A model generated the notes under the pieces. The model was not told the DNA's origin and made no database searches. It worked only from the letters and a program-made list of their open reading frames with translations. Positions 1,430 to 64,000 of a DNA stretch of 64,000 bases are shown here, piece by piece. Origin of the DNA: Candidatus Zixiibacteriota bacterium (GTDB lineage Bacteria; Zixibacteria; MSB-5A5; GN15; JAAZOE01); NCBI GenBank assembly GCA_036480375.1, contig JAZGGI010000024.1, positions 62,001 to 126,000 on the forward strand, in the 5' to 3' direction. Position numbers and translations under genes: made by a program. Position 1 is the first letter of the stretch. Every line of letters begins with the position of its first letter.

Positions 1430-2050
1430 ATGATAGAAAATCTGCTCGAGATATTTTTGCTCCTTGGATATACCGGTATCGTGGTTCTGATGCTCCTCGA
1501 AAGTTCCTTTTTCCCATTTCCCAGTGAAATCGTTATGATCCCTGCCGGAGTTCTGGCGGCCCAGGGACAAATGGATCCCTGGCTTGCTATCTTTATGGGT
1601 ATTTTGGGAAGCTGGCTGGGAGCGCTTCTGAATTATTATCTGGCGGTCTGGCTGGGACGGCCTTTTATCAACAGGTACGGGAAATTTATATTTTTACCGC
1701 CTCAGCGTTTTATTAAAGTCGAAACCTTTTTCAGGGAACATGGAGAAATTTCTACTTTTACGGGACGACTGATTCCGGCGGTCAGACAATATATTTCTTT
1801 CCCGGCGGGATTGGCTCGCATGGATATCGGAAGGTTTTTGTTATTTACCGGCCTCGGCGCCGGTATCTGGGTTGCCATACTTGTTTGGATTGGATATGTA
1901 GCGGGCAAGCAATTGGAAAATATCAACGAGGAATCGATAAAAGCCCTGTGGCATCAGTATTCTTCTGAAATTACTTTCGGTTTGATCGGCTTCTGCGTTA
2001 TCCTTATAAGTTTCTATATTTTCTGGCACCGAAGAAAAAAGAAAAAGTAA
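1430..2050 (+). CDS. DedA family membrane protein
   Basis: This 206-residue protein has DedA/SNARE-associated hallmarks. The N-terminal stretch carries ESSFFPFPSEIVMIPAG, a central stretch carries FTGRLIPAVRQYISFPAG, and there are several hydrophobic segments and a basic C-terminal tail (HRRKKKK). The conserved E, the F-x-G-R and the proline-containing re-entrant segment are present. DedA proteins act in the inner membrane in proton-motive-force-dependent lipid carrier recycling and membrane homeostasis; the exact substrate is not predictable here. It follows the CNNM gene closely on the same strand. Confidence 0.88.
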   Translation: MIENLLEIFLLLGYTGIVVLMLLESSFFPFPSEIVMIPAGVLAAQGQMDPWLAIFMGILGSWLGALLNYYLAVWLGRPFINRYGKFIFLPPQRFIKVETFFREHGEISTFTGRLIPAVRQYISFPAGLARMDIGRFLLFTGLGAGIWVAILVWIGYVAGKQLENINEESIKALWHQYSSEITFGLIGFCVILISFYIFWHRRKKKK

Positions 2051-2097
2051 ATGGTCAATCCCGAGTTTTATCTTAAGTCGAGTAAGTGAATCATCAA

Positions 2098-2250
2098 ATG
2101 CCGTCACCCATTAATAAATTTAAGAAAATCACAATACAAGAAATCCTTGGCGCGATTCAGGAATACGATAAAAACAAAATTTCACTCTCGGTATTGGAAA
2201 AAAGACGTACTTTCATACCCTTAACTTCGCATTTGTTTGATTTTCCATAA
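2098..2250 (+). CDS. Small ORF of 50 codons, possible gene fragment
   Basis: An ATG at 2098 opens a 50-codon frame ending in TAA at 2248-2250. It is lysine-rich, with a segment ITIQEILGAIQEYDKNK that looks like real protein rather than random sequence. No ribosome binding site is evident. It may be the start of a longer gene cut short by a later deletion. I do not recognise a family. The rest of 2051-2353 holds nothing I can name. Confidence 0.22.
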   Translation: MPSPINKFKKITIQEILGAIQEYDKNKISLSVLEKRRTFIPLTSHLFDFP

Positions 2251-2353
2251 TCCATATACTAACTAATCTCAACCCCTGTGTACAGATTCATCTGGGAAAT
2301 CCGGGTTTAATATTGCCTGATACCTAATTCTACATTCTTCTGCTCCCCATTAT

Positions 2354-3022
2354 CTAATACCTAAGCAGAACGGATACCAATACCCCGGAAAATCTTTTCT
2401 CCTTGTTGAAATCCACGAACCAGCACAGCCCGAATCCCCATTGTCTAAGTGGCGTCCAGTACACTTGTGCTTCAACTGGAAAAGCGATAGCGTTGTAGGT
2501 AATTTTTTCGTATATGGTCTCCGTGTGTAAAAAGCTCATCTCGTGGGAAATCAGCTCCCCGTGCCGGACTCCTTCTAACACACTCAATCCGCCTGAGAGA
2601 GAAACCATGAATTTGGCACTCTTAGTGAACCAGCCATAGAGCACGCCATAGTCCCGGGTATTTTCCAGCGGCCTGATCTTACTTGTCCCAATGCCCGAGA
2701 TATTTCCTTCTTTGTCATCCTGCCATGCGCAAATGAACCTGCCGGTTAGAATGCCCCTCCACACACGTTGAGAATAGCCAACCCTGAAAGCGCCAGAGCC
2801 AGCATCTGGCGCATGACTTGAACTGGTACCGATTCCTAAACTGAACCAGTGCATTTTCTCATCAGGAGGATCTGCAGGCTGCGAAGACTCTTCAGCGGAA
2901 GAAGATATTGAGGCGAACAGCAGGCAGAAACAGATCCCCCAGGCAAGGTTTCTCAGCCGGATCAGATCGACGGCAGGGATCACGTGAAAAAGTCCGGCAG
3001 CATTTTGAATAAGTCCAAACAT
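2354..3022 (-). CDS. Hypothetical secreted protein, outer-membrane beta-barrel-like
   Basis: The start is placed at the ATG at 3022 because GGGAG lies eight bases upstream; the open frame extends further 5' without a better site. The 222-residue product has an N-terminal hydrophobic segment (about residues 23-42) ending in a small-residue stretch that could be a signal peptide. The rest has alternating hydrophobic/aromatic strands (for example FRVGYSQRVWRGILTGRFICAW) and an aromatic C-terminus (VLLRY). That pattern suits a small outer-membrane barrel. No named family is recognised. It lies alone between the DedA gene and the accessory stretch, on the opposite strand to DedA. Confidence 0.5.
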   Translation of the reverse strand: MFGLIQNAAGLFHVIPAVDLIRLRNLAWGICFCLLFASISSSAEESSQPADPPDEKMHWFSLGIGTSSSHAPDAGSGAFRVGYSQRVWRGILTGRFICAWQDDKEGNISGIGTSKIRPLENTRDYGVLYGWFTKSAKFMVSLSGGLSVLEGVRHGELISHEMSFLHTETIYEKITYNAIAFPVEAQVYWTPLRQWGFGLCWFVDFNKEKRFSGVLVSVLLRY

Positions 3023-3390
3023 AATGAAATCTCCCGTTTTGAGAATATAAGACACTTCTTTTGTCCAGGACATAAGTAGCCCGCGCTTGCAGTTCCGAAA
3101 GGCTACTCCCCGCTCCCTCATTACTGTTTCCATGATCAACCTCGAGTTTGTCTCGTCTCGGCCTAACAATAATTAACCGAGATTTCCCATATAGGGATTC
3201 AAAAACACGGTTTGTCCCTTTGTATTTTGAATATACAAAAGTCTCCTGGAATTGGCAATAATTTACCCGCTTACTCCCCCGCACACCCCACCTGTGGCGG
3301 GTCACCGCCTTTGAAGACATAGTTTATTAGATACACGGATTCACGCACGTTTGTCTCACAATCGCCGTAAAAAAATAAATTATCCTCAGG

Positions 3391-3651
3391 TTGTGTTACA
3401 CCCGGTTAATTCCAGATTATGCCGTGCGACTGCCGTCATTTTTATGGGAAGAACCATTTGAACGGGGAACACGCTTTGCTATTTACAGATTGATAATTAA
3501 TATGCCGGAATTGCACAGCTTGTTTATTGATTACCTTGATGAATATATAAAATCACTGAAATCGGATAATGAATTTATTCGCGACTATCGGAAATTTGAA
3601 CGAGATCCAACTGCCTCAATGATTACTTCAACTGATTCTCAAGCAAGCTGA
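3391..3651 (+). CDS. Short ORF of unknown nature, possibly a gene remnant
   Basis: The frame opens with TTG and encodes 86 residues. The middle (RGTRFAIYRLIINMPELH followed by LFIDYLDEYIKSLK) looks protein-like and helical, but there is no convincing ribosome binding site. Its last codons run into the decayed YkgJ fragment on the other strand, so the C-terminal residues are probably accidental. It may be the end of a gene whose 5' part is lost. The surrounding bases 3023-3390 show no other gene. Confidence 0.22.
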   Translation: MCYTRLIPDYAVRLPSFLWEEPFERGTRFAIYRLIINMPELHSLFIDYLDEYIKSLKSDNEFIRDYRKFERDPTASMITSTDSQAS

Positions 3652-3712
3652 CGTGGGCCAGAGCGGCGTCTTTTTTTGCGCCACGTTTAATCAGTTCTTC
3701 GATGACATCTCG
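3623..3712 (-). pseudogene. Decayed 3'-end fragment of a YkgJ-family gene homologous to the intact copy ending at 6433
   Basis: Read on the minus strand, this stretch encodes about 30 residues ending LIKRGAKKDAALAHVSLL, then ENQLK and TAA. The last 17 residues are identical to the C-terminus of the intact gene whose stop is at 6433. Just upstream the residues are similar (DVIEEL against NIIDEL), and an in-frame stop then closes the frame near 3720. Most base differences between the copies are at third codon positions, so both were under protein-level selection before this copy was truncated. It is a relic of a homologous gene rather than a recent duplicate. With the intact end it brackets the AAA+ gene. 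Confidence 0.8.
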
Positions 3713-3733
3713 ATCAAATTAAATAAATATTAA

Positions 3734-6214
3734 TTATCGATCCGGTTGAAAAGATATTTTTACCAAGTCATTATCCTCGGCCTCCGCTAAGTTGAAATTC
3801 ATATCATACCAATCCTGCTCAAGAATGCTAATATGTCTGCTTAATTCTGCATCAGCCGCCAAACCGGTTAATTTGGGTGCGTCTGCGGCTCTGATAATAC
3901 CTTTGACAGGTGGTGTAAATTTATTTACGAATATTTGTAGGCTCCGAATTCCATTTTTGGGACGAATATTGTAAAAGAGTTCCAATATTTTTTTGTCAAC
4001 ATGCGTGATGGGTCCAAAAGACCTCTTAAATTGAAAAATCCCTTGATAAACTAATTCTGTTCTAAGGCTTTTGCTAAGCTTTGCGTTTTTATCCAAACTC
4101 CTTTGACGTTCACTTTCTTCCACTTTATGCTGTATCTGAATGCGGTCTTTTTCTTCAAGGTAATCCAGGTTTAGGATGTGACCGTTAATACGCGATAAAA
4201 AATCTCTGCCTTTGTCAGATTCCGTAAGTGAATCTGCCGGTTTCGTCAGGGCAAATACCCATACGCATGGATCTATTTTATTTGTGTTGCCTTCAATTTT
4301 GAATTCGCCGTCCCACATAGGCCCCAGAAAGAGCCCCAAAGGGTTGTGTCCCTCAATCCTGGCATCGGTCTCATCCATAAATACCAAAACTTTTTTATTA
4401 GTCCGTTTCTGCGTAGAGACAATTACTTTAAATGAATCAATAAGATCCTCGTTTGAAGCCATCTGGGCAATTGAAAACGGCAAATATTCAAAGTCAAAAT
4501 GATCAGATAAACATCGGGCCAGGTAGCTTTTGCCCCAACCCGGTTCGGAAATAAACAGGCAATTGAAAGGAAATTTGGGATTTTCTATTTTACTGAAACT
4601 ATTCAGCGAAGAGATCAGGTTGTTTATTGCAGATCGTTTTGCTCCACCGGGGCATATATAATCTGTCAATGTTCCGCATGACCGCCACACTTGCAATTCA
4701 TCTGTCTGGCGTTGCTCATTCTTATTTCGCAAAATTATTCCCTGTTCTTTTGAAGACCTATTCCAGTCCTCCCAGGATCGTCCATATTTTAAAGCTTGGC
4801 GTTTCGGTTTTTTTGAGGGAGGGGATGATAGAGAATTCCACATAATCACTTGGTCGAATGGCCCGCTAAGCTGATCCGGCTGTTTATCGTGCCAGGCGTC
4901 TGTGCATTCCTGCGTCCAACGATACATATTAGATAAAGCGCGACCGCACAAATCATAGATATTATCTGAATTAGATCCGGCCTCATCCTCATCCGACATC
5001 AGATCCAGATGAATCAGCGAATTGAAGAAAATGGAGGTTCTCCCTACCTGGATCGGCATAATGTCACCTGACGGCGGTGGGATGTAATACATATTGGCGT
5101 CATTTGAGTTATCCGGTCTGCTGGCTGCCAGTGCGGAATTATCTTCAAATAAGATAGCCGCATGCAATGCTTTGGGATATTTATTCTGTTCCTTTCTTTT
5201 ACCATGTTTATATGTATGAAGGCCAAGCATGTCGCCCATCGCCTCAAGAGCCCCTCGACCCAAATAAGCCCCATGACGATAACGACGGATACCGTATTGA
5301 TACTTAATTAATTGTTCGTCTTTGATAATTAGTCTTAATTTCTTTTTCCTTTTTTTAAGATAGTTTAACCATGATGGTTCTGCACGCTTCAAGCGAACAT
5401 ACCATTTCTTATCTTTATATTTCTCATACAGAATTTCTATCACCTTATCATTTATAACTCCTTTTCCATGATCGACTATGACCACGGCTTCAACATCCTT
5501 TATTTCTTTTATAATATCTTTTATCCTTTTGTCGGGTAGTTTGCTTTCGTCAATTTCTAATTTCCAGTCAAATCGATAAAGTAATTCGGGCTGATCTCCG
5601 CCGAATCCCTCATATATGCGAAAAATCCGATTTGTGGATGAGTGATTAGAGTTTTCTTCGTTAAATAGATTTATCATTTCCAGATGATCCTGCAACTCAC
5701 AAGGACAATCATCATAGGGACAGATTCGTCTGAGCTTTGCCTTAGAATTATTATCGTCAGGTTTATAATGGTCAGGAACCTTGAGCCCTTCCAATTTGTA
5801 TGGATTCATACTTTTATCACGGTGTTTTTTGGGGCATAATACGCATTCAATAATTTCGTTATCACGAGGATTCCAGGCGCTAACGCCTAAAAGTTCATAT
5901 TTCTTTAATAATGGATTTTCTTCTTCCTCTTCTAAATTTTCGGATCTGCCCGGCCCATATAATATTTTCAATGAATTTCCGACACCGCACAAACTAAAAA
6001 TCATGCTTTTCGGCCCCTCCAGGTAACTTATGTAATGATGCTTACCCACATTGGTGCTACTATAACTTTCGTGCTTGGCCATAAGCCAATTTTCATCAAT
6101 AAAAAGATCCCCAATTACAAGGATTTTTTTCTTATTTTTTTCCATAGAAACATTTTTATCCTTTTGCATATCTATTTGTAAAGAGTTGGTTTTATTATTG
6201 GTTTTTTTTGCCAT
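3734..6214 (-). CDS. Large AAA+ ATPase with an N-terminal degenerate PfkB/ribokinase-like region
   Basis: The ATG at 6214 is preceded by GGGAGG at good spacing, giving 826 residues. The N-terminal part resembles a ribokinase/PfkB fold: KKILVIGDLFIDEN near residues 29-42, CGVGNSLKIL near 76-85, and AVVIVDHGKGVIND near 243-256. The C-terminal catalytic GAGD loop of sugar kinases is not seen; the matching place reads QVGRTSIFFNSL (about 389-400), so the kinase is probably inactive. A Cys set (C-x2-C, then C-x4-C-x-C at about 124-172) could bind metal. The C-terminal part is an AAA+ module with Walker A SEPGWGKS (about 556-563), Walker B VLVFMDETD (about 610-618) and a possible arginine-bearing segment GRDFLSR. 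It is AT-richer than its neighbours, is monocistronic and lies between two versions of a YkgJ gene end. The function is unknown; regulation or defence are possibilities only. Confidence 0.75.
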   Translation of the reverse strand: MAKKTNNKTNSLQIDMQKDKNVSMEKNKKKILVIGDLFIDENWLMAKHESYSSTNVGKHHYISYLEGPKSMIFSLCGVGNSLKILYGPGRSENLEEEEENPLLKKYELLGVSAWNPRDNEIIECVLCPKKHRDKSMNPYKLEGLKVPDHYKPDDNNSKAKLRRICPYDDCPCELQDHLEMINLFNEENSNHSSTNRIFRIYEGFGGDQPELLYRFDWKLEIDESKLPDKRIKDIIKEIKDVEAVVIVDHGKGVINDKVIEILYEKYKDKKWYVRLKRAEPSWLNYLKKRKKKLRLIIKDEQLIKYQYGIRRYRHGAYLGRGALEAMGDMLGLHTYKHGKRKEQNKYPKALHAAILFEDNSALAASRPDNSNDANMYYIPPPSGDIMPIQVGRTSIFFNSLIHLDLMSDEDEAGSNSDNIYDLCGRALSNMYRWTQECTDAWHDKQPDQLSGPFDQVIMWNSLSSPPSKKPKRQALKYGRSWEDWNRSSKEQGIILRNKNEQRQTDELQVWRSCGTLTDYICPGGAKRSAINNLISSLNSFSKIENPKFPFNCLFISEPGWGKSYLARCLSDHFDFEYLPFSIAQMASNEDLIDSFKVIVSTQKRTNKKVLVFMDETDARIEGHNPLGLFLGPMWDGEFKIEGNTNKIDPCVWVFALTKPADSLTESDKGRDFLSRINGHILNLDYLEEKDRIQIQHKVEESERQRSLDKNAKLSKSLRTELVYQGIFQFKRSFGPITHVDKKILELFYNIRPKNGIRSLQIFVNKFTPPVKGIIRAADAPKLTGLAADAELSRHISILEQDWYDMNFNLAEAEDNDLVKISFQPDR

Positions 6215-6432
6215 GATATCCTCCCGCACCTATTATCCCCAAATGGAATTATTGAAAGACCTAATTAAAATACTATTTATGATTTGAAAGTCAAGGAGAC
6301 GAAACAATTGTTTTTATTAAAGTTATAGAAATTATTTTTATGAAAATCAATTGTGGATTGTAGATAATATATAGGGAGTGAGGCGCTTTACTTTGCCGAA
6401 CAATTACACAGGTGTCCCCGGCGCAGTTTATG

Positions 6433-7503
6433 CTATTTCAGCTGATTCTCAAGCAAGCTGACATGGGCCAAAGCGGCATCTTTTTTTACACCTCGCTTGA
6501 TCAATTCATCAATAATATTTTTCTTCGGCATTCCATCCGCGAATAGTCTCGTGACATGAATTGAAAGTTCTACCGGTGATGTCACGCCTTCGACAAATTT
6601 CCAATTGGTGTTATTGGCAATGGCTTTTTGTTCCTCAGAGAACCCGCCAAACGCCGCCCGCCATTTGGGAACCGGGACGATGTCATTCATATCGGAAGCC
6701 ATTTTCTTTTTGCTGACTTCCAGCGCTTGTGATTTGATTTTCATCGTCTGTTCGCCAAAAATAGCGAATTTAATCCAGTCAAACGCGAATTTCAAAAGTT
6801 TAATATCGTCTGACTTAAGCTGCTCAACCAACTCATTTTCGATTTCAATTTTATCTAAAAAACTGCTCTTGAAGACAAAATCCCGGAACTTATCAATATT
6901 ATAGCAGGCTGTGAAAAACATCTCCATCCGCTTGGGATCGATGTGATTCCCTTTTTCAAAGAAATCGCTGAGACTTATTTCTTTGAACCAGTTTCCATAT
7001 TCATTGTATTCTTCAATACCCTGGTCGGCCAGCCATTCACCGACGGTGATAGTATTATCTTCGTTGTGACCTTTGCAGGTCTCCTCCTTAAGCAGAAAAA
7101 AGAAGTCTCTCTCATTGTCCGTCTGGTCGGCTTTGGGCGATGCCAATCCCAAAGGATACATGCGGCATGGCCAGGGGCGATCTTCGTAAACCGTACATCC
7201 CTGCTCAGCGACAAACGGACACGATTTCTTCTCATTGTCCTCCATTTTGAGAAGCAGTACCGGGTATTTAGCGTTCTCGTCAAACGGAGAAATTGTATAG
7301 CGTGAAAGAAATTCACCCGAGGTTATCCCTAGGCGATTTTTAAGACGAATAATATCATAAGAAGTCAGAAAGATATTCACGTCCCCGCAACAATCATTAA
7401 AACAGGGAACATCCTTATGACATTTAAAGCAAAATTCGCTTTTCTCATCCATACGCGGATAGTCTTCGAGTATCGCTTTCTTGAGATTTTCAATTTCCCG
7501 CAT
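6433..7503 (-). CDS. YkgJ-family cysteine-cluster protein
   Basis: This 356-residue protein carries the YkgJ (PF03692) Cys-rich region in its first 140 residues: C25, C28, C34, C38 and C39, then CPFVAEQGC and PWPCRMYPLG. The family is thought to chelate zinc or an iron-sulfur centre. The C-terminal 200 residues are helical and not assigned. The start is three bases after the stop of the zinc-ribbon gene, so the two are co-transcribed, downstream of the sat-aprB-aprA terminator. Proximity to aprBA suggests a role linked to sulfate reduction, but this is inference. The 3' end is represented again, in decayed form, at 3623-3712. Confidence 0.8.
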   Translation of the reverse strand: MREIENLKKAILEDYPRMDEKSEFCFKCHKDVPCFNDCCGDVNIFLTSYDIIRLKNRLGITSGEFLSRYTISPFDENAKYPVLLLKMEDNEKKSCPFVAEQGCTVYEDRPWPCRMYPLGLASPKADQTDNERDFFFLLKEETCKGHNEDNTITVGEWLADQGIEEYNEYGNWFKEISLSDFFEKGNHIDPKRMEMFFTACYNIDKFRDFVFKSSFLDKIEIENELVEQLKSDDIKLLKFAFDWIKFAIFGEQTMKIKSQALEVSKKKMASDMNDIVPVPKWRAAFGGFSEEQKAIANNTNWKFVEGVTSPVELSIHVTRLFADGMPKKNIIDELIKRGVKKDAALAHVSLLENQLK

Positions 7504-7506
7504 TAT

Positions 7507-7779
7507 CTATTCTCCATCTTCAACAATGGCGTCTTTATGGGCATCGGGCGACCAGACCGGCAGCGGACCTTTCTGACCGGTGACGGGATCGTAACGATGA
7601 CGATAGGAGGCATATTGATTATATTCTGTCCTCATTCGTTCCCAGCCTCTAACATAATATCCGCACTCGTCATTGAAACAGACGTATTGCGGGTGATCAC
7701 CCCAGGTTGATTGCTCCGGGGGAGCCCATTTTTTCATCGGTTGACCGCAATGCGGACAATTTGTATCTTTGTTTTCCAT
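7507..7779 (-). CDS. Small zinc-ribbon protein
   Basis: This 90-residue protein has two cysteine pairs, C8-x2-C11 and C34-x4-C39, in an arrangement like the ogr/Delta-type zinc ribbon. Between them lie W and P residues, and the C-terminal half is rich in Tyr, Arg and Asp without membrane segments. It is probably a cytoplasmic metal-binding protein. It lies 113 bases downstream of aprA, beyond a strong terminator, and is followed directly by the YkgJ gene. No reaction can be assigned. Confidence 0.7.
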
Positions 7780-7821
7780 AATCCCAATATACTCAAAAAA
7801 TCCGGTTTAGATTACAAATAA

Positions 7822-7892: not shown

Positions 7893-9824
7893 CTAAGCCG
7901 ACGCCATGGTTGCCTCTTCATGTTCAATAGCTTCAGGATAAACATGGAGCATCGGGCGCTTGATCATTTCCCAATCGCCTGATTCGGGATTCCAGCGGCA
8001 GTTGGCAAAGCTGTGCCAATTCTCGTCATCCAGTGCCGGGAAGTCTGAGCGACGATAGTAACCCGGCCAACGAGTCTCTTCACGGAAGAGAATAGTTCTG
8101 GTATGAGCTTCAGCCTGCCACATACGTTGGACGTTTTCCCAGACACGAAGCAGTTCGTGCAGGTCTTCAGCCGCCAGCTTCTCAGAGTCTTCTCTCAAGA
8201 AGGTGAGAAGATCAAGGGCTCTATCCAAACAGGCTTTATTGGTCGTAAACTGAGCCGAGACACCGCCGACATACTCATCCATAATCTTCTGAAGACGGAA
8301 CATAAACATCTTCGGACGGATGTAGTTGGGATTGATGTTCGGGTCAGTCGTTTTGTCTTTGTTAGCCTCAAAGATTTCGAGAGGTTTGAGGGCCAAAGCC
8401 TTATACTCATCGACTTTTCCCTGGTTGGCGTTAGGCTGGTCATTGTTTTCAACGATAAACTTGATGGCTGCCTTACCACTGATACGACCTTCAGCATGTG
8501 AACCGGAGGAGAATTTGTGCGACGAGGCGCCCGAGGCGTCACCGGCGCAGAACAAACCCTTGACAGTCGACATGTTGGAGTATCCCCAGAAGTATTCACC
8601 TTTGGTTTCGTCATTCTGGAGATCATCCGGACCGGAAACCCAAGCGCCGGAAGCGCCGGAATGAGAACCAATGAAGTACGGCTCGGCCGCGGCGATTTCG
8701 GAGGGCTGCTTGTCAGGCTCGATGTTGCTGGCCGCCCACAGGATAGCCTGTGAGATGGTCATATCCAGAAAGTCTTCCCAGGCTTCGGCTTCGAGTTCTT
8801 TAAGTTTCTTCTTGGCGGTTTTTTCGTCGCCGGCCTCAGACACGATCCTTTGAATCGCTTCGTCAGTACGCATAAAGATAGGGCCTTTGCCTTCCATGAC
8901 GTCAAGCATACCGAGCCAGTTACGTAAATTCGCCGGAATCGGTTTTACCAAACCATACGGTTTCCACTTTTCGAGTTCATCGCGGCGTTCGATCATATAG
9001 TTACCGCCCATGGCATTAGTCGCAGCTGCTTTGAAGAGCAGGAACCAGGCGCCAACCGGACCATAAGCGTCTTTGAAACGAACCGGGATAAACCGGATTT
9101 CCTGAGAGGTTAACTCAGCGCCGGCACGCGCGGTGAAATATAACGAGGAACCGGAGTTCCACGGAGGATACCAGGCACGGCCAAGGCCTTCACCGGTACT
9201 GCGTGGTTTGAATACATGAACGGCGCCACCCATGGCACAGATAGTGGCTTTGGCACGGAAGACATAGTATTTGTTTTCACGAGTGCTGAAACCAACTGCG
9301 CCGGCAATGCGATCGCCGTCCATCAGCGGTTCGGTAATGAAAATACGTTCAAAATATTCACCGTCATTTTCGGTCAAAGCATTTTTGGCCGCTTCAGCGA
9401 CGATAACTTTGTAGGATTCACCGTTGATCATAAGCTGCCAACGACCTTCATGAACGAATTTGCCGTTTTCATCGGTCCAGATTGGCAAACCCCATTTTTC
9501 AAAAAGGTGTACGGTTGAATCAACGTGACGAGCAATATTGGCGACCAGGTCTTCACGAATGATGCCCATAAGGTCCATGCGGACATAATCGACATAATCC
9601 TTAACCGTGTTTTCACCATCGGTCAAACCAACATACTGGTTCAGGGCCGAAAGACCCATGGCAACGGCGCCGGAGCGGTCAATCGCAGCTTTATCGACTA
9701 AAGTTACCTTAAGACCGTTCTTTTTGGCCCAGTAGGAAGCCTCAACTGCCGCGCCGCAAGCTGCCATACCACCACCGAGAATCAGAAGATCTGTGGTGAC
9801 TTCAACAGTTTCGAAATTTTGCAT
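7893..9824 (-). CDS. aprA: Adenylylsulfate (APS) reductase alpha subunit
   Basis: AprA is the FAD-bearing subunit that reduces APS to sulfite and AMP in the cytoplasm. The 643-residue product begins with the dinucleotide-binding segment LLILGGGMAACGAAVEAS and continues with the fumarate-reductase-type fold, including DKAAIDRSGAVAMG and GLFCAGDASGASSHKFSSGS near the FAD. The C-terminal domain contains RWPGYYRRSDFPALDD, well conserved in AprA. Length is typical. The ATG is preceded by GGAGG. aprB lies 20 bases upstream and sat upstream of that. AprB passes the electrons in, from QmoABC. Whether it is of the reductive clade needs a tree. Confidence 0.97.
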   Translation of the reverse strand: MQNFETVEVTTDLLILGGGMAACGAAVEASYWAKKNGLKVTLVDKAAIDRSGAVAMGLSALNQYVGLTDGENTVKDYVDYVRMDLMGIIREDLVANIARHVDSTVHLFEKWGLPIWTDENGKFVHEGRWQLMINGESYKVIVAEAAKNALTENDGEYFERIFITEPLMDGDRIAGAVGFSTRENKYYVFRAKATICAMGGAVHVFKPRSTGEGLGRAWYPPWNSGSSLYFTARAGAELTSQEIRFIPVRFKDAYGPVGAWFLLFKAAATNAMGGNYMIERRDELEKWKPYGLVKPIPANLRNWLGMLDVMEGKGPIFMRTDEAIQRIVSEAGDEKTAKKKLKELEAEAWEDFLDMTISQAILWAASNIEPDKQPSEIAAAEPYFIGSHSGASGAWVSGPDDLQNDETKGEYFWGYSNMSTVKGLFCAGDASGASSHKFSSGSHAEGRISGKAAIKFIVENNDQPNANQGKVDEYKALALKPLEIFEANKDKTTDPNINPNYIRPKMFMFRLQKIMDEYVGGVSAQFTTNKACLDRALDLLTFLREDSEKLAAEDLHELLRVWENVQRMWQAEAHTRTILFREETRWPGYYRRSDFPALDDENWHSFANCRWNPESGDWEMIKRPMLHVYPEAIEHEEATMASA

Positions 9825-9844
9825 TCTCTTAATACCTCCAGATT

Positions 9845-10285
9845 TTACTTAAGAGTGTACACTTCAGATAATCTGAGCGCTTCAGGCTCTTGAGCCAGGG
9901 TTTGATCGTTTAAATTATCATGAGCGGTAGCATAACCGCCAGTCGGCTTTGCTTTACCTTCTTCAGTTGTCCGAATGGGGAATTTGAACCGTTTCAACAT
10001 GTTGTTACGGAATTTCACCGTCCACATGATGCTGTCGGTGCTCCGCATCGGCGTAACCATCGCACCCATCGGTACGAAATCGGCATAACCGCGCACTTCG
10101 ACCGCCTGGGTCGGGCAAATCTTGACGCAGCTATAGCACTCCCAGCACATTTCCGGTTCCTGGTTAAAGGCTTTCATTTTTTCCTTATCCAGGACCATCA
10201 AATCGTTGGGGCAAATATACTGACAAGCGGTCTTGTCCAGCGCCTTGCACCCGTCGCATTTTTCGGGAATTACAAAACTTGGCAT
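9845..10285 (-). CDS. aprB: APS reductase beta subunit, ferredoxin type
   Basis: The 146-residue iron-sulfur subunit feeds electrons to the AprA flavin. Two [4Fe-4S] sets are seen: C10, C13, C21, C25 and C47, C50, C53, C57. The wide spacing in the first set (CDGCKALDKTACQYIC) is an AprB signature. The C-terminal tail, from about residue 85, is the extension that wraps around AprA in known structures. The start has GGAGG upstream. It sits between sat and aprA in one operon. Confidence 0.97.
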   Translation of the reverse strand: MPSFVIPEKCDGCKALDKTACQYICPNDLMVLDKEKMKAFNQEPEMCWECYSCVKICPTQAVEVRGYADFVPMGAMVTPMRSTDSIMWTVKFRNNMLKRFKFPIRTTEEGKAKPTGGYATAHDNLNDQTLAQEPEALRLSEVYTLK

Positions 10286-63034: not shown

Positions 63035-64000
63035 ATGAAAAGCCCAACAATCTATACTGTGACCATACTAATTGTATTATCACTGATTCAAATATGCAAT
63101 GGTAAAATAATATTAATTTCTCCACAGGAAGGTATTGAAGTTGCAATTTCAAATGCTATTGAAGGCGATACTCTCCAATTTCAACCAGGAATATATACTG
63201 GTGTCTTAAATAAAAATATTACAATAAATACAAATGGATTATACATCACCTCCATTTCAGGCGCAGAAAATACAATAATTGACCTTGAAAATAATGGTCG
63301 AGCATTTAACATCGAAGGTAATGTTGATTCTACCTGCCTTATAGAGGGACTTACTTTTAGAAATGGTAATGTCAACCGCGTAAGCGGTGGGGCCATATCA
63401 ACATTGTCCGCGACTCCTCGACTAAAAAATTGCATATTTGAAAATAATTACGCCGATCAGGCAGGTGCTATTAGAGGATGTTTCTATTCTGTTGAAAATT
63501 GTATATTCAGTGATAATAGAGTTGCGACACACGGAGGAGCTATGACTTTATACGGCGGCTGCAGTACAATTCTCAAAAATTGCCTTTTTGTAAATAATGA
63601 TGCTATTGAGGGAAGTGCTGTTTCTTGTATTCAATCAAGTCCCATTTTTATTAATTGTACTTTTGTTAAAAATAAAGGTCTATCTGCTGTAAACTTATTT
63701 AGCTCGGCCAAGCCGATCTTCGAAAACTGTATATTGGCTTTTAATGAAGAATATGCATTTTCATACATGACATTTTCAGGTGACGACTATAACAATCCTT
63801 CATTTTTTTGTACGAATATTTCAGAAAACCAATATGATTGGGATTCAGAAATATCACATCATTTGGGACAAAATGGAAATATATCTTTAGATCCACTATT
63901 TTGCGATATTGAGAATAATGACTTTTCGATCTCTAGTGATTCCCCTTGTGCTCTGGCAAATAACGAATGCGGTGTTTTAATTGGGTGTTTTTATGTTCAG
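63035..64000 (+). CDS. Secreted right-handed beta-helix repeat protein (partial, 3' end outside window)
   Basis: AGGAGA lies before the ATG at 63035; the frame is open to the window end (322 codons). The product has a signal peptide (TVTILIVLSLIQICNG) and then a DUF1565-type right-handed parallel beta-helix: VAISNAIEGDTLQFQPGIYT, CLIEGLTFRNGNVN, LKNCIFENNYADQAGAI and FINCTFVKNKG. Such proteins are exported and often end in a sorting domain. The gene is AT-richer than the sulfur cluster, with codon use unlike it, which may point to another origin. Function is probably surface binding or polysaccharide contact; no enzyme site is evident. Confidence 0.8.
   Translation, partial: MKSPTIYTVTILIVLSLIQICNGKIILISPQEGIEVAISNAIEGDTLQFQPGIYTGVLNKNITINTNGLYITSISGAENTIIDLENNGRAFNIEGNVDSTCLIEGLTFRNGNVNRVSGGAISTLSATPRLKNCIFENNYADQAGAIRGCFYSVENCIFSDNRVATHGGAMTLYGGCSTILKNCLFVNNDAIEGSAVSCIQSSPIFINCTFVKNKGLSAVNLFSSAKPIFENCILAFNEEYAFSYMTFSGDDYNNPSFFCTNISENQYDWDSEISHHLGQNGNISLDPLFCDIENNDFSISSDSPCALANNECGVLIGCFYVQ

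Follow-up and report, generated by a model that had tools for sequence, protein, structure and literature searches.

The DNA analysed here, a stretch of 64,000 nucleotides that we call the window, belongs to the genome of a sulfur-cycling member of the Zixibacteria. On its minus strand, sat, aprB and aprA are followed by a small Ogr/Delta-like zinc-finger gene, a YkgJ-like gene, a gene for an AAA+ protein and a relic of a gene end. The YkgJ-like gene (6433-7503, 356 residues) is made up of a conserved core with a CxxCxxCC motif, at about residues 1-268 (6700-7503) and with orthologues in relatives, and of a 3′ extension, T (6433-6699, 88 amino acids as searched). The AAA+ gene (3734-6214), with an HldE/RfaE-like N-terminal part, likely starts at the ATG at 6214 and possibly at the GTG at 6229; at a joint read from the sequence at 3710-3742, its end meets the relic (3623-3712), the last 29 codons and stop of a diverged T-bearing gene end. 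A CBS/CorC-type gene and a VTT gene approach from the left on the plus strand, as far as 2050, and 4382 bp (2051-6432) lie between the VTT and YkgJ stop codons. This stretch also holds an ORF on the minus strand that is outer-membrane-like by eye (2354-3073), a dispersed repeat of about 100 bp with four other copies in the genome (3177-3275) and a second apparent gene-end relic on the minus strand, dockerin-like by eye (3271-3405).

The YkgJ-like gene and its tail

The YkgJ-like protein matches PF03692 (37 bits, cut-off 23), and matches to it at E ≤ 0.001 were found in 24 of 60 genomes, its own included. Besides its own, these comprise 21 genomes with an orthologue whose 3′ end is readable (one of them, L023, without its N-terminus) and two that stood outside the 3′-end comparison, namely G003 (L025), where the gene is cut by the contig end at residue 106, and G024 (L026), with a relative of 29% identity. 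The stop of all 21 readable orthologues falls opposite residues ~265-282 of the 356 in the window protein, leaving 75-90 extra residues that constitute T, with the fusion point at about residues 268-282, its exact place uncertain. The initial annotation, in which the relic matched the C-terminus of the YkgJ gene, must be corrected on this point, since the normal end of the family lies earlier; the absence of T from every readable orthologue implies that the relic descends either from a homologue of the extended form or from some other gene sharing this tail.

At E ≤ 0.001, T was found in its own genome only (1 of 132 Zixibacteria genomes), pattern-based scans of GTDB r220 contigs and of viral contigs gave no confirmed match, and none was seen in phages (E ≤ 1) or plasmids (E ≤ 0.1). 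With a profile at E ≤ 1, 23 of the 132 genomes were recovered, its own included, the best E values of the other 22 being 0.084 to 0.72. Since the own genome alone matches confidently and the 22 others only weakly, T is an orphan at this sensitivity. Ten of the weak matches were inspected and all were taken for chance, the best being a glycogen-synthase-like C-terminus by eye, and all Pfam and PHROGs matches of T had E ≥ 0.03. In a single-sequence structural model of T (mean pLDDT 63) the last 47 residues form three helices; this model matched nothing in the PDB at E ≤ 0.001, and a UBA-like appearance was an impression that we do not claim.

As the readable YkgJ orthologues all end before T, T would be a late addition, and it could be the end of a different gene, of which there were two diverged copies, one fused to YkgJ by a deletion and the other mostly removed by the AAA+ gene. 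The other debris in the region agrees with this, but no free-standing T gene was found in the searches run and more events are needed, which makes such an origin improbable.

The YkgJ-like gene co-occurs with AprA, both being present in 22 of 60 genomes and neither in 36 (Fisher p 3.6e-14, with the weak YkgJ relative of G024 counted apart); G021 has AprA only and G037 YkgJ only, each at a contig edge. Of 21 loci, 18 encode AprA near YkgJ and 20 have the zinc-finger gene there, and in G036 and G052 AprA is on a different contig from YkgJ. Our literature search found no papers treating aprA, aprB and YkgJ together.

The relic and its match to the YkgJ gene end

On the minus strand, 3623-3712 translates as RDVIEELIKRGAKKDAALAHVSLLENQLK-stop and 6433-6522 as KNIIDELIKRGVKKDAALAHVSLLENQLK-stop, with 71 of the 90 bases the same and the final 17 residues identical. 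The 19 base differences are distributed 6/2/11 over codon positions 1/2/3, and the changed codons comprise 12 synonymous ones (stop codon included) and five nonsynonymous ones, giving a dN of 0.086 and a dS of 1.53 (NG86, 29 sense codons, a length at which the rates are rough). Simulated sets of 18 random changes, with transitions and transversions in the observed proportions, altered 10.7 residues on average, and five or fewer in 0.085% of 20,000 trials. These results support the divergence of the relic under purifying selection and rule out a recent copy. The initial annotation thus holds here on three counts: the identity of the last 17 residues, the concentration of the differences at third codon positions, and the derivation of the relic from a homologue that had diverged under selection.

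The relic is the sole other match to the YkgJ protein in its own genome at E ≤ 0.001 (E 4.1e-8), and the homology, as expected of a displaced gene end, extends from some 20 bp past the AAA+ stop to the stop codon of the relic. We rejected the idea that the AAA+ protein once continued into the relic, with which it is in frame: the AAA+ protein ends in LVKISFQPDR and its 49% identical homologue in LVKILFRP, at the same place, so that the relic lies outside the AAA+ protein despite the common frame.

A dS of about 1.5 agrees equally with a foreign homologue and with an ancient duplication, and the two gene ends could go back to old tandem paralogues, both bearing T, the AAA+ gene having inserted between the two or taken the place of most of the second, of which the last 29 codons are left. 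This reading dispenses with a donor, but the YkgJ search found a second YkgJ gene in none of the 24 matching genomes, and T was unseen outside its own genome in the genomes and GTDB r220 contigs searched; we regard it as possible, though rather unlikely.

Identical codons cluster between the two copies, with a run of seven (P 0.016) and a 21-nt identical block at 3632-3652 and 6442-6462 (P 0.064) that is the longest identical stretch. Such a block, together with the geometry of one repaired and one displaced gene end, would suit a site-specific integrative element whose attachment-site remains are the two T ends. However, the block has coding homology on either side, continuing for 60 bp on the would-be element's side, which counts against this explanation, and no identical core is seen at the other edge. 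Nor was any integrase-like match obtained among the insert proteins tested (Pfam, NCBIfam, PHROGs), which agrees with the initial annotation; in PHROGs this covers the AAA+ protein, ORF 2354-3073, ORF 3391-3651 and T. We therefore consider an element of this kind very unlikely. The same low standing is given to an assembly artefact in which two strains differing in their YkgJ-T genes were merged: the named Zixibacteria records that we met are metagenome-assembled genomes (MAGs), and a strain mixture could give such a joint, but the contig is 298 kb long, contamination is given as 0.56%, there is no N in 2400-7800, and the copies are identical over at most 21 bases in a row. At the joint, two copies of GATCGA (3737-3742 and 3710-3715) lie 27 bp apart; a repeat of only 6 bp may be due to chance, and by a rough estimate chance could also account for a 16-nt inverted repeat (3488-3503 and 3727-3742).

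The inserted DNA and the AAA+ gene

Related genomes were compared for an empty site, and G001, of the same family and another genus, preserves the order of the flanking genes, with one YkgJ gene and 86 bp between the VTT and YkgJ stops. Compared with the 4.4 kb of the window, this shows an insertion difference at the family level. T, the AAA+ gene and ORF 2354-3073 were found in none of 21 relative loci and the VTT gene in one (G001), these loci being read for at most ~1.5 kb past YkgJ and one for only 273 bp. ORF 2354-3073 is rare, with matches at E ≤ 0.001 in seven of 132 genomes including its own (the others 29-38% identical) and no Pfam match at E ≤ 1. The DNA at 3305-3366 resembles seven other places in the same genome, which lie within long ORFs or at their ends, and the dockerin-like reading of 3271-3405 had no Pfam match at E ≤ 0.01. 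The spot collects debris, and a single event need not account for all 4.4 kb. Over 1900-7600, Rfam gave nothing at E ≤ 1, and neither promoter-like sites (18 against 14.0, sd 3.9, in shuffled sequences) nor terminator-like sites (6 against 5.5) were in clear excess.

The AAA+ protein matches PF00004 (23 bits, cut-off 21.2; its homologues reach 23-36 bits). Matches at E ≤ 0.001 occurred in 16 of 132 genomes and were long in four of them, its own, G064 (49%), G111 (36%) and G055 (29%), the remaining 12 being short and to the kinase-like or the AAA part. Scanning GTDB r220 with the four-row alignment gave 347 candidates, of which three were confirmed, each a Candidatus Zixiibacteriota MAG and together evidently those same three genomes; absence elsewhere in GTDB is unproven, because the scan rests on two short motifs. 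No relatives were found in plasmids or viral contigs, and with PADLOC the AAA+ protein and YkgJ matched no family at E ≤ 1. Residues 207-267 resemble HldE/RfaE (PfkB-type) sugar kinases through a match to TIGR02198 (E 2.1e-6, 27.1 bits, far below the cut-off of 345), and two inspected proteins behind the weak whole-genome matches are HldE-like by eye. By our reading, however, the place of the GAGD motif seen in these HldE-like proteins holds GRTS in the window protein, and the kinase-like part is fused to an AAA+ domain. A model built from four sequences (mean pLDDT 54) is too poor to fix the N-terminal fold; the best 50 matches listed by Foldseek are AAA+-type proteins by title. Judging by the domains alone, its probable role is in ATP-driven remodelling or sensing, and the kinase-like part, devoid of GAGD, would be a binding module. 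Its gene has a GC3 of 0.385 (mean 0.502, sd 0.062), the second lowest of 38 ORFs and 1.9 sd low; the lowest (0.24) is that of ORF 63035-64000, which runs off the end of the window.

Among the distant AAA relatives, those encoded in G089 (L052:7080-10235) and G111 (L051:667-3198) carry an RyR domain at the C-terminus. They share 29-30% identity with the window protein in the AAA part only, and differ from it in their RyR domain (PF02026, E 1.1e-14 and 4.9e-16, respectively), to which the window protein has no match. The gene in L052 is flanked by those of a DUF4062/NACHT-type/TPR protein and a TIR/NB-ARC/TPR protein, and in L051 a SIR2/NTPase-type protein is encoded ~6 kb from the AAA-RyR gene; both are possible conflict-system settings.

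Exchange at the locus

The aprB and aprA genes (7893-10285, minus strand; TIGR02060 and TIGR02061 above cut-off) are of a type foreign to the family. The window AprA is 81-86% identical to that of six genomes of other families (G033, G012, G019, G017, G025 and G022) and 72-74% identical to that of its own family (G001-G003), and in the AprAB tree the window groups with those six genomes with 100/100 support (comparison loci L045-L047 and L099-L108). The AU test rejected grouping with the own family for both AprA (p 7.4e-7) and AprB (p 0.023). Trees of YkgJ plus the zinc-finger protein (96/96) and of QmoC (96/93, 12 rows) keep the family together; support is weaker with YkgJ alone (87/86) and with Sat (62/71), and the zinc-finger protein alone neither shows nor rejects the own-family grouping (p 0.079). 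In a sliding comparison, the six genomes exceeded the own family in all 14 AprA segments and the own family exceeded the six in both zinc-finger segments, while the YkgJ segments favoured the own family (two by more than 0.07) or were even. With AprA and AprB foreign and YkgJ and the zinc-finger protein family-type, aprBA has been replaced in place, ~0.4 kb from YkgJ, by the version of another family, and the flanking qmoC and YkgJ/zinc-finger genes have remained of the family type. Exchange between homologues, which the initial annotation had invoked, therefore happens at this locus. The aprBA tract and the YkgJ end are separate, and the first is no proof of how the second came about.

For the YkgJ end, the explanation that we favour, with a probability of roughly 45%, is that related bacteria exchanged DNA one-sidedly here, by homology-facilitated illegitimate recombination, and that the locus is the scar. 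The recipient lineage would have had a YkgJ gene with a T tail, and the incoming DNA, from a related lineage, would have held a diverged YkgJ-T gene with the AAA+ gene behind it. Donor and recipient DNA may have paired at the homologous YkgJ or at a neighbouring region, the far end of the incoming DNA, just past the AAA+ stop codon, being joined illegitimately into the recipient's own T. The incoming copy would then have become the working YkgJ gene and the AAA+ gene would have been gained, the last 29 codons of the displaced recipient gene being left behind as the relic. The donor, the direction, a single event and any role of GATCGA are inferences in this account. An intact gene with, beyond new DNA, the 3′ remnant of a homologue is the arrangement that such recombination leaves and is present here, and the divergence of the relic under purifying selection, the family-level empty site, the patchy distribution of the AAA+ gene and the aprBA swap are in favour as well. 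On the weaker side, the low GC3 of the AAA+ gene and the short repeat at the joint are slight signals, the run of seven identical codons is not predicted by a one-sided exchange, and the YkgJ core groups with its own family, so that no foreign signal is seen in the supposed incoming copy. No other T-bearing locus that could represent a parental donor or recipient, and no complete gene corresponding to the relic, turned up at the thresholds used in the 132 genomes, GTDB r220 contigs, viral contigs, phages and plasmids. In the initial annotation, either the AAA+ gene arrived by exchange between homologues or a paralogue was lost around it; this is partly supported, in that the insertion difference stands at the family level, and either route is possible. 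What is well supported is a scar of a familiar type in an unexpected place, with an orphan tail without a traced source.

Scars of displaced gene ends have been described mostly from toxin loci. In the excerpted text of three papers, homology-facilitated illegitimate recombination is proposed for orphaned 3′ ends in the Vibrio T6SS, with Rhs mentioned (PMC5361080), for Acinetobacter CDI loci (PMC6336857) and for dimorphic loci (PMC2884548). According to these excerpts, the T6SS, Rhs and CDI cases likewise have an intact upstream gene, new DNA and the 3′ remnant of a displaced homologue, and invoke no transposase or integrase (PMC5361080, PMC6336857). They differ in being, as described there, polymorphic toxin/immunity loci with many sequenced strains, whereas the window has an apr-linked metal-binding protein with an orphan tail, parents that were not found and only 29 codons left. 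The scar reported here lies in a metabolic locus of a little-cultured phylum, ~0.4 kb from a separately demonstrated in-place swap of aprBA.

It is a far-fetched possibility that T, the AAA+ gene and the second T form a mobile unit that inserts at gene ends, the three-helix tail coupling a host protein to the ATPase; if so, the tail fused to the apr-linked YkgJ would couple YkgJ to the AAA+ ATPase. The orphan tail and the HldE-like/AAA+ protein are in any case uncharacterised leads. Since aprA serves as a marker gene for sulfur-cycle bacteria, as stated in an excerpt of PMC5099947, aprBA swaps can misplace lineages within the Zixibacteria.
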